36,756 nt of DNA, taken from Thermotogaceae bacterium (lineage in GTDB: Bacteria > Thermotogota > Thermotogae > Thermotogales > Thermotogaceae). The position numbers and the translations under genes are program-made. This document shows, one piece after another, positions 464-4,720 of this stretch (its first letter is position 1; each line of letters begins with the position of its first letter). A model generated the notes under the pieces. That model had not been told where the DNA came from and ran no database searches. It was given only the letters and a program-made list of their open reading frames with translations. Where the stretch lies: positions 1 through 36,756 of the forward strand of contig WGAO01000080.1 of assembly GCA_015489065.1 (NCBI GenBank). Reading direction: 5' to 3'.

Positions 464-723
464 TTGGGAACATAGTAATATGGATTGGAATAATCGTCAT
501 GATATCTGGAAGCGCTATTGGAATATTCGAAAAAAGGTTCTTGGTAAAGCTTCATAAAATCAGCGCCGCAGACTTTGTTGGACTATCGCTTGTTCTGATG
601 GGAATGGCTTTGAATGGCTTTGAAACTGTTAAAAGCCTTCTAACGCTAGTTTTTCTAGCTGTGTGGTCTCCTTCTATAACTCACACATTAGCAAAAACTT
701 ATGTGAACAGGATGAGAAAATGA
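460..723 (+). CDS. mnhG: Mrp/Mbh antiporter subunit G (MnhG)
   Basis: The 87-residue protein has three predicted helices and the MnhG hallmark after helix 1: 'FLVKLHKISAADFVGLSLVLMG', equivalent to the family's R-L-H-x-x-S-x-A-D-T-x-G. The C-terminal 'SPSITHTLAKTYV' matches the family's 'SP-x-x-x-H-x-I/L-A-R-A'. The start overlaps mnhF by ATGA, and the stop overlaps the next gene by ATGA at 720. It is one of three small subunits in the conserved E-F-G order, as in archaeal Mbh clusters (mbhA-B-C). Confidence 0.88.
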   Translation: MIGNIVIWIGIIVMISGSAIGIFEKRFLVKLHKISAADFVGLSLVLMGMALNGFETVKSLLTLVFLAVWSPSITHTLAKTYVNRMRK

Positions 724-1355
724 GAGAAATAATTCCATGGACTATGGTTGCAGTATCTTTCTTCGTAATAATACAGAACAATCCTACAAGAGCAGTACTT
801 CTCAGGATCACGCTGAGTATACTTGCAATAGCAGCTTATATGTTGTACATGGCACCAGACGTTGCCCTTGCAGAGGCTATGCTTGGAAGTCTCCTAACAA
901 CCTTCCTATACATCCTGATGCTTAAGAGCCCCGTCTCAATAAGGGTTGGTTATGTACCATCAAGATTCCTAATAGAAGAGCATCCCTGGGGAATGGACGG
1001 AATATTCAAAGAGCTGATCGATCTGTTCTCTAAAAAGAATGGATACGATGTGGAGTACATAAGATTCAAATCGGTCGATGAGTTAGTCGAGTCTTTAGAA
1101 TCGGGATATTTGGATATAGCTTGTGGTCCAATAACAGGAAAAGGATTCCCAATATTAGAGACCCGCGTTTTCACTTTAGACAGCGGGGAAGAAAAAGATT
1201 TTCTGTCCATGAAAAGAGAGGATTTTTACAGAATAAAAGAGTCAAAAGAAGATCACTACGGAATACTCTCGAAAAGAAGAGAGATCAATTCATTTCTGAG
1301 AGAAGCAGAGGAGAGGGGTATAATCCGTGAAATTGTTAAAAAGTATACGACTTGA
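720..1355 (+). CDS. MbhD (DUF4040) domain fused to solute-binding-like domain
   Basis: I chose ATG 720 (ATGA overlap with mnhG); an in-frame ATG at 663 would lie deep inside mnhG. The 211-residue product has two parts. Residues 1-70 form three membrane helices with the MbhD/MrpB-type signature 'MAPDVALAEAMLGSLLTT' (family: APD-x-A-x-T-E-A). Residues 73-140 follow the start of bacterial family-3 solute-binding proteins: a beta strand 'IRVGYVPS', a tryptophan-glycine turn, an amphipathic helix, a second strand and the 'L-x-S-G-x-x-D-I-A-C-G-P-I-T' motif. The C-terminal helix ('INSFLREAEERGIIREI') resembles the last helix of that fold, while the usual second lobe is much reduced. The MbhD part is well supported. 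The binding-protein part is by pattern only, and no ligand can be inferred. Function may be regulatory or structural within the antiporter. Confidence 0.75.
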   Translation: MREIIPWTMVAVSFFVIIQNNPTRAVLLRITLSILAIAAYMLYMAPDVALAEAMLGSLLTTFLYILMLKSPVSIRVGYVPSRFLIEEHPWGMDGIFKELIDLFSKKNGYDVEYIRFKSVDELVESLESGYLDIACGPITGKGFPILETRVFTLDSGEEKDFLSMKREDFYRIKESKEDHYGILSKRREINSFLREAEERGIIREIVKKYTT

Positions 1356-3758: not shown

Positions 3759-4163
3759 ATGCAACTCGCTTTCTCAGACATGTGCTTTGGATGCGGAAAG
3801 AGAAACGAATGTGGCCTCAAATTGAGTATATCCTACTCCGGAAATAGAGCGAAATCGAAAAAGATATTTGAGGAAAGATTTCAGGGGTGGAACGGGATAG
3901 TTCACGGAGGAATAATAACAACCGCAATAGATGAGGTTATGGCTTACGCCGTTGGATCGGCGACTGGGAAAACTGGCGTCACAGCTGAGCTCACAATAAG
4001 ATTCAAAAAACCGGTTAAGATAGGTGAAGAATACGATATAGACGCAGAGGTGGTAGAATTCAACAAAAGAAAAGCCGTTGTTAGAGGTTGGATAAAAAGA
4101 GGCGGAACGATTCACGCTGAGGGAAGAGGGATTTATGTCTTGTTGAGAGAGGTGGACAGATGA
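3759..4163 (+). CDS. PaaI-type hotdog thioesterase
   Basis: The 134-residue protein has the single hotdog-fold layout. 'CFGCGKRNECGL' at the N-terminus is common in this subgroup. It is followed by the catalytic-helix motif 'NGIVHGGIITTAIDEVMAYA' (family: G-x-x-H-G-G-x-x-x-x-L-x-D), with the D/E near its middle as the usual active-site acid. A perfect AGGAGGTGAT SD precedes ATG 3759. It probably hydrolyses an acyl-CoA or similar thioester in the cytoplasm; the acyl group cannot be told from sequence. The stop overlaps the next start by ATGA, so it is co-translated with the phosphoesterase. Confidence 0.82.
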   Translation: MQLAFSDMCFGCGKRNECGLKLSISYSGNRAKSKKIFEERFQGWNGIVHGGIITTAIDEVMAYAVGSATGKTGVTAELTIRFKKPVKIGEEYDIDAEVVEFNKRKAVVRGWIKRGGTIHAEGRGIYVLLREVDR

Positions 4164-4720
4164 GGGTCATAGTGGTATCAGATACTCACGGCTCCGTTAC
4201 ATCCTGGAGAAAAATCGTAAGCGTCGCAGGGAGAGATAATCTGTTTTTGCATCTTGGTGATGTCCTTTATCATGGCCCTAGAAATCCAATCCCTGACGGT
4301 TACGATCCGAAAACTCTCGCAGAAGAACTCAAGAATTACAGGATAGATTTCGTAAGAGGAAACTGCGATGCGGACGTCGACATAACAGTTCTTGGTCTCC
4401 CAGAAATTCCGAAGATTGCAGAGCAAACCTTCGGAGATTGGAAAATTCTCATGGTTCACGGTGAAGACATTGATGACGAGATAGGTTTTGCAAAAAAACA
4501 CGGTGCGAATGTGCTTTTGAGAGGGCATACTCACATACCCAAGATAGAGGAATCATCAGGCGTGATCGTTGTAAATCCAGGAAGTCCCAGCATTCCAAAA
4601 GGTGGATTCCCCCCGACTTTTTCGATATTAGATTTTAAAGGGGATTCCCTTATCATTCGAATTCTAAATCTTGACGGATCGGAGATAATGAAGGAGGTGT
4701 TCAAACATGAAGAAAGATAA
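4160..4720 (+). CDS. YfcE/MJ0936-type metallophosphoesterase
   Basis: The 186-residue protein has the calcineurin-like metal-binding motifs in order: 'SDTHG' near residue 7, 'HLGD' near 31, 'GNCD' near 69, 'VHGE' near 99 and 'RGHTH' near 120, then 'NPGSPSIPK'. This is the YfcE/MJ0936 family of Mn2+/Ni2+ phosphodiesterases, for which physiological substrates are poorly defined. It overlaps the thioesterase by ATGA and overlaps the protease gene downstream by 14 bases. Confidence 0.85.
   Translation: MRVIVVSDTHGSVTSWRKIVSVAGRDNLFLHLGDVLYHGPRNPIPDGYDPKTLAEELKNYRIDFVRGNCDADVDITVLGLPEIPKIAEQTFGDWKILMVHGEDIDDEIGFAKKHGANVLLRGHTHIPKIEESSGVIVVNPGSPSIPKGGFPPTFSILDFKGDSLIIRILNLDGSEIMKEVFKHEER

Follow-up and report, generated by a model that had tools for sequence, protein, structure and literature searches.

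Complex I and the membrane hydrogenases are thought to descend from Mrp antiporters, and a small three-helix module, MbhD, recurs among them. In MBH- and Mbx-type complexes (PDB 6cfw chain D; 6u8y chain D), MbhD is a protein of 81-96 residues with an APDVA-E motif; it carries no tail and is part of redox-driven complexes. Its E69 has been named as the homologue of the key residue E706 of MrpA (PMC7419157). In canonical MrpA (6z16, 7qru, 7d3u), the MbhD helices correspond to transmembrane helices (TMH) 17-19, within the C-terminal part, MrpA-C, that comprises TMH17-21 (PMC7419157). The closest described relatives of the locus studied here are the group 3 Mrp systems, a layout reported for cyanobacteria (PMC5703873), in which a short MrpA without the NuoL part is encoded in the order C-D-E-F-G-A-B. 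Some of these operons contain two mrpD genes; the mrpCD1D2EFGAB operon of Aphanothece conferred Na+/H+ antiport and sodium tolerance in Escherichia coli (PMC5703873). The short A subunit of this cyanobacterial group corresponds to NCBIfam PRK07377, a "hypothetical protein" family.

We analyzed a stretch of 36,756 nucleotides from a Thermotogaceae bacterium (contig WGAO01000080.1; "the window"), which opens inside an operon of this kind, all of it on the forward strand. At positions 1-227 lies the 3' part of mrpE, its 5' part falling beyond the contig end; it terminates in ...LEHHIHKLVRK, like the MrpE open reading frame in the genome of a sister species (G002, locus L031). There follow mrpF (224-463, 79 amino acids; Pfam MrpF_PhaF, 1.2e-5), mrpG (460-723, 87 amino acids; PhaG_MnhG_YufB, 2e-10), a gene for 211 amino acids in which an MbhD module is fused to a C-terminal tail (720-1355), and mrpB (1327-1956, 209 amino acids; MnhB, 1.4e-14), which NCBIfam matches to monovalent cation/H+ antiporter subunit B. 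The fused gene is a single open reading frame in one frame; it shares 4 bases with mrpG, ATG against stop, and 29 bases at its 3' end with mrpB.

The window order, E(3')-F-G-A'-B, is completed in the sister genome, where mrpC, D, E, F and G precede the fused gene and mrpB; a Synergistales locus (L050) and a Nostoc locus (L057) have the same order. These three loci thus show the group 3 layout with a short A. No NuoL-like MrpA-N was found in the operons of the window, the sister genome or a Thermotoga-type genome (G009), and the fused-gene operon contains no hydrogenase-like or NuoC-, NuoD- or NuoH-like subunits, the next genes being tmk and an ABC-type permease. Judged by its sequence and setting, the fused gene encodes the short MrpA subunit, equivalent to the MbhD half of MrpA-C, in a compact Mrp of group 3 type (mrpCDEFGA'B) without NuoL-like MrpA-N. 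Na+/H+ exchange has been reported only for the cyanobacterial relative (PMC5703873), and for the window operon it is a prediction. Compared with canonical MrpA, the fused gene lacks MrpA-N, and MbhE is found in the next gene, with the tail lying between MbhD and MbhE: mrpB begins with an MbhE-like segment, and its Nostoc counterpart gives an MbhE match there. Because MbhE-like sequence opens the next gene, we rejected the idea that the tail stands in for MbhE. A phosphodiesterase-like gene lies near the compact operon in two genera (window 4160-4720; L032:13659-14228), which suggests a conserved neighborhood.

The initial annotation placed an MbhD/DUF4040 module at residues 1-70, and Pfam PF13244 does match residues 9-69 (744-926), above its cut-off (5e-12). 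AlphaFold models three helices here (residues 4-18, 22-42 and 47-69), and the APDVA motif is present, so that the domain match, helix number and motif all agree with MbhD/MrpA-C. Glu52 (codon 873-875) aligns with E69 of Pyrococcus furiosus MbhD and is invariant in the alignment of relatives (set A1). Among fused copies of loci L142-L157, which we would guess to be of Kosmotogaceae/Mesotoga and Petrotogaceae type, Gln occupies the equivalent position, giving APDVA..Q rather than APDVA..E.

The tail resembles half of a family-3 solute-binding protein (SBP). Against the whole protein, SBP_bac_3 matches residues 75-139 with 25.4 bits (1.3e-5), below its curated cut-off of 26.4, and against the tail alone it reaches 27.1 bits, above it. 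A family profile built from 21 relatives and searched against the PDB matches MbhD chains (6u8y, 6cfw) over positions 1-71 and SBP chains over the remainder, among them the SBP domain of MltF (5uh0, E 1.2e-7). The MltF alignment keeps the order: profile positions 68-142 fall on chain residues 8-82, and those of the final segment, 177-219, fall on 191-235. The first segment of lobe 1 is encoded at 936-1157 (residues ~73-146), and its second segment, with the last helices, at 1245-1352 (residues ~176-211; aligned to the C-terminal segments of MltF, AncQR and the organism's own SBPs). Between them, at 1158-1244 (residues ~147-175), a remnant replaces lobe 2: 34 profile positions face 108 chain residues of MltF, and 31 profile columns face ~95 residues of the organism's own amino-acid SBP (L167). 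Lobe 2 is therefore indeed cut, as first proposed, to ~30 residues rather than the ~50 estimated then. The tail has no signal peptide, and no Arg or Lys column that could represent the basic ligand anchor (TxTxxR) is conserved at 70% or more among 47 tails. The columns that are conserved are G77, E86, G94, E98, F103, D132, G136, L146, T148, D160, Y180 and Y209.

Structure prediction agrees with these assignments. An AlphaFold2 model computed with 21 sequences had a mean pLDDT of 87.7 over the whole protein and ~91 over the tail (mostly 87-94). All of the 50 best Foldseek matches in the PDB were of SBP type, with E values from 1.8e-6 and a probability of 1.00; one of them was domain A of LAO on its own (6xks, TMt 0.62). 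A cyanobacterial relative, modeled from its own alignment, gave a lower confidence, 72, and its best fold matches were LysR-type effector domains, Tp32 and PqqT, all of the PBP-II class. Lobe 1 and the last helix of a family-3 SBP, which had been read from the letters of the DNA, are thus recovered in the same frame by Pfam, profile, AlphaFold and Foldseek alike, and the absence of an SBP-type fold, which would have spoken against that reading, is not what the model shows. A single protein combines MbhD with a type-II periplasmic-binding-protein domain of one lobe. The tail shares its lobe-1 fold and segment order with family-3 SBPs (the MltF SBP domain, ArgBP, GlnBP, LAO domain A), from which it differs in its lobe 2 of ~30 residues, in lacking a signal peptide and a conserved basic anchor, and in being probably cytoplasmic. 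Single-lobe SBPs as such have a precedent, since PMC10601554 cites an SBP of Rhodothermus marinus that naturally has a single domain.

Since the window contig starts inside the operon, a frameshift, a misassembly or a chance similarity might be suspected, but the same one-frame fusion recurs across dozens of assemblies made independently, single-contig genomes among them. Among the window's own genome and 60 relatives, 40 of 61 had a match, the best copies being full length in one open frame, and about 68 of 103 Thermotogota genomes (an approximate count) had a match that covers MbhD and continues into the tail. The fused copies have no internal stops except in G343 (G343:C13:225036-225766), where the copy is apparently broken, with MbhD and tail in separate frames and stops between them. 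The tail evolves under purifying selection (omega ~0.06-0.13) nearly as strong as that on the membrane part. No frameshift separating the domains of the window protein was found, the earlier judgment that the fusion is not artificial holds, and we consider the chance of an artifact negligible. Selenocysteine or other recoding was also dismissed: the lone TGA in fused copies of genera g31 and g32 is the normal terminal stop.

The genome of the window also encodes a second MbhD, of 81 amino acids, which ends after the helices and has no tail (G000:C103, L158); the operon around it is of the Mbx redox type and contains NuoH-, NuoC- and NuoD-like genes. This bears out the expectation that ordinary MbhD subunits stop after the helices, the size in this genome being 81 residues rather than the ~90 that had been supposed. 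With L132 and the NuoL-type MrpA in L164 set apart, MbhD copies split cleanly into those with at most 17 amino acids after MbhD and those with 89-175.

A motif scan of 84,980 genomes recovered fused relatives in Synergistales, Desulfobacterota, Pontiella and many cyanobacteria, which refutes a tail confined to Thermotogota. The full-length fusion was present in 37 of 98 cyanobacteria and 3 of 101 Synergistota (more than 70 of the latter having other, mostly tail-less, MbhD matches), and in 1 of 148 and 1 of 79 for the phyla of Desulfoferrobacter and Pontiella (Kiritimatiellota), respectively. Profile-profile comparison of Thermotogota with cyanobacterial tails gave a probability of 79% with cyanobacteria alone and 96% when the intermediate phyla were included; on this sequence evidence, the two sets of tails are homologous. 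The window operon therefore shares with cyanobacterial group 3 Mrp its gene set and order, a short MrpA without the NuoL part, MbhE and MnhB in the next gene, and a homologous tail. The cyanobacterial tail is shorter and much degenerated, whereas the Thermotogota tail keeps a clear SBP lobe-1 sequence, and the window protein does not score above the PRK07377 cut-off. Between phyla the sequence drifts strongly, while fold and fusion persist. At L052, L068, L070 and other Synechococcus/Cyanobium loci, ~90 residues that neither tail profile matches follow MbhD; there the tail appears to be strongly degenerate or replaced.

In an unrooted tree built from the MbhD module alone (85 rows, 69 columns, with canonical NuoL-fused MrpA left out), all 67 fused copies fell on one side of one branch (support 99/99), and the switch between fused and tail-less states required one change in 100% of 200 bootstrap trees. 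This is consistent with one fusion event, or, because the tree is unrooted, equally with one loss. The tail is ancient.

On which side of the membrane the tail lies was approached in two ways. Mean charges in 21 relatives were +1.2 for loop 1-2, -2.0 for loop 2-3 and +2.7/-0.2 after helix 3, so that, by the positive-inside rule, the positive loop 1-2 and the positive stretch after TM3, with the negative loop 2-3, put the tail in the cytoplasm. In MrpA, helix HL, which falls between TMH15 and TMH16, lies at the cytoplasmic face (PMC7419157), and, by our own counting of helices from there, the end of TMH19, i.e., the end of MbhD, would also be cytoplasmic. The two derivations agree, and the tail is probably inside the cell. 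The cytoplasm is also where MrpE has its ferredoxin-like domain, at the entrance proposed for cations (PMC7419157).

What might such a domain do? We infer that it projects into the cytoplasm where the third helix, the one bearing the cation-site glutamate E52, ends, near the entrance for cations that MrpE, MrpF and MrpG form on that side. As a structural-regulatory cap, it would lie against the cytoplasmic face of the complex and influence its assembly, or access to or coupling of the cation site, through helix 3; a classical two-lobed ligand trap is absent from it. As a whole, a single-lobe cytoplasmic cap attached to the helix that carries this glutamate, in a compact group-3-type Mrp, is the best explanation that we can offer, and we regard it as evenly poised between right and wrong. 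Kinship to extracytoplasmic SBPs might instead suggest a receptor for solutes outside the cell, but a tail without lobe 2, signal peptide and anchor, and which both the charge pattern and MrpA topology direct to the cytoplasm, is not an extracellular receptor in any probable reading. Alternatively, an ex-sensor could have been retained purely for folding or stability of the complex, carrying no signal. That lobe 2 and the anchor are gone would fit this, as would the persistence of fold and fusion through strong sequence drift; however, selection on the tail nearly equals that on the membrane part, and E86, G94, D132 and others are kept across the class, so that we think a purely structural role unlikely.

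Another rival is ligand gating from inside, in which the lobe binds a cytoplasmic metabolite or ion, shifts helix 3 and thereby opens or closes the cation path. Isolated lobes of LAO, HisJ and ArgBP still bind some ligand, and many type-II PBPs have most of their binding residues in the discontinuous lobe (PMC10601554), the one kept here; the LysR effector domains that head the fold matches of the cyanobacterial tail are cytoplasmic PBP-II sensors; and E86, T148, D160 and Y180 are conserved. Against it, the conserved Arg/Lys ligand anchor is absent, the conserved columns are mainly scaffold positions, and the cyanobacterial tails are much degenerated. With lobe 2, signal peptide and conserved basic anchor missing, we consider ligand gating doubtful. 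Of the original proposal, then, a binding-protein-like domain on an ion-translocating complex stands, and a ligand-sensing binding protein goes unsupported in the form first put, for these same reasons and the likely cytoplasmic location. Redox sensing through the cysteine of the ACG motif, the only motif containing one, was rejected: the motif is absent from the copies of family f3, and since it is not kept in all families the idea of redox-sensed antiport is weakened.

Like the Gln that replaces E52 in some fused copies, a feature of MrpD weighs against the cap explanation. MrpD of the sister species lacks the TMH7 lysine, having Gly instead, and the clade may therefore have a changed mode of antiport; the TMH7 and TMH12-region lysines of MrpD have been called absolutely conserved and essential (PMC7419157), and Thermotoga-type, Kosmotogaceae-type and cyanobacterial MrpD keep them. 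In the mrpD genes of the window genus (L031, L172) and of two neighboring genera (L173, L175), the TMH7 Lys of SGxxxK is replaced by Gly or Asn, Asn being found in the two neighboring genera, and the TMH12-region Lys by Glu. By eye, mrpC of the sister species (L031:12183-12503) appears to have an acidic residue (AVEVMNVG) at a position where Mrp antiporters are said to carry conserved histidines, which we take to look more like NuoK of complex I.

In the open-access literature on Mrp, MbhD, DUF4040, cyanobacterial MrpA and solute-binding fusions we found no earlier description of the tail, in line with the initial annotation's view of the architecture as undescribed, nor did we find in the open-access literature any experiment on this subunit. 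Mrp subunits and single-lobe SBPs are each already known; what is new is their union, a single-lobe binding-protein domain as an integral part of an Mrp subunit. The tail is a natural and long-lived example of such a domain, of which, to our knowledge, few have been reported. That a cytoplasmic single-lobe binding protein in the cation-site helix responds to a metabolite or ion by gating antiport, in Thermotogota and cyanobacteria alike, seems to us rather unlikely; if true, we know of no earlier sensor domain within the Mrp/complex I membrane family. We know of little about how Mrp antiporter activity is controlled, and a conserved soluble domain borne by the helix of the cation-site residue offers a definite starting point in the search for that control, in an architecture that extends to cyanobacteria, where Mrp is genetically tractable.
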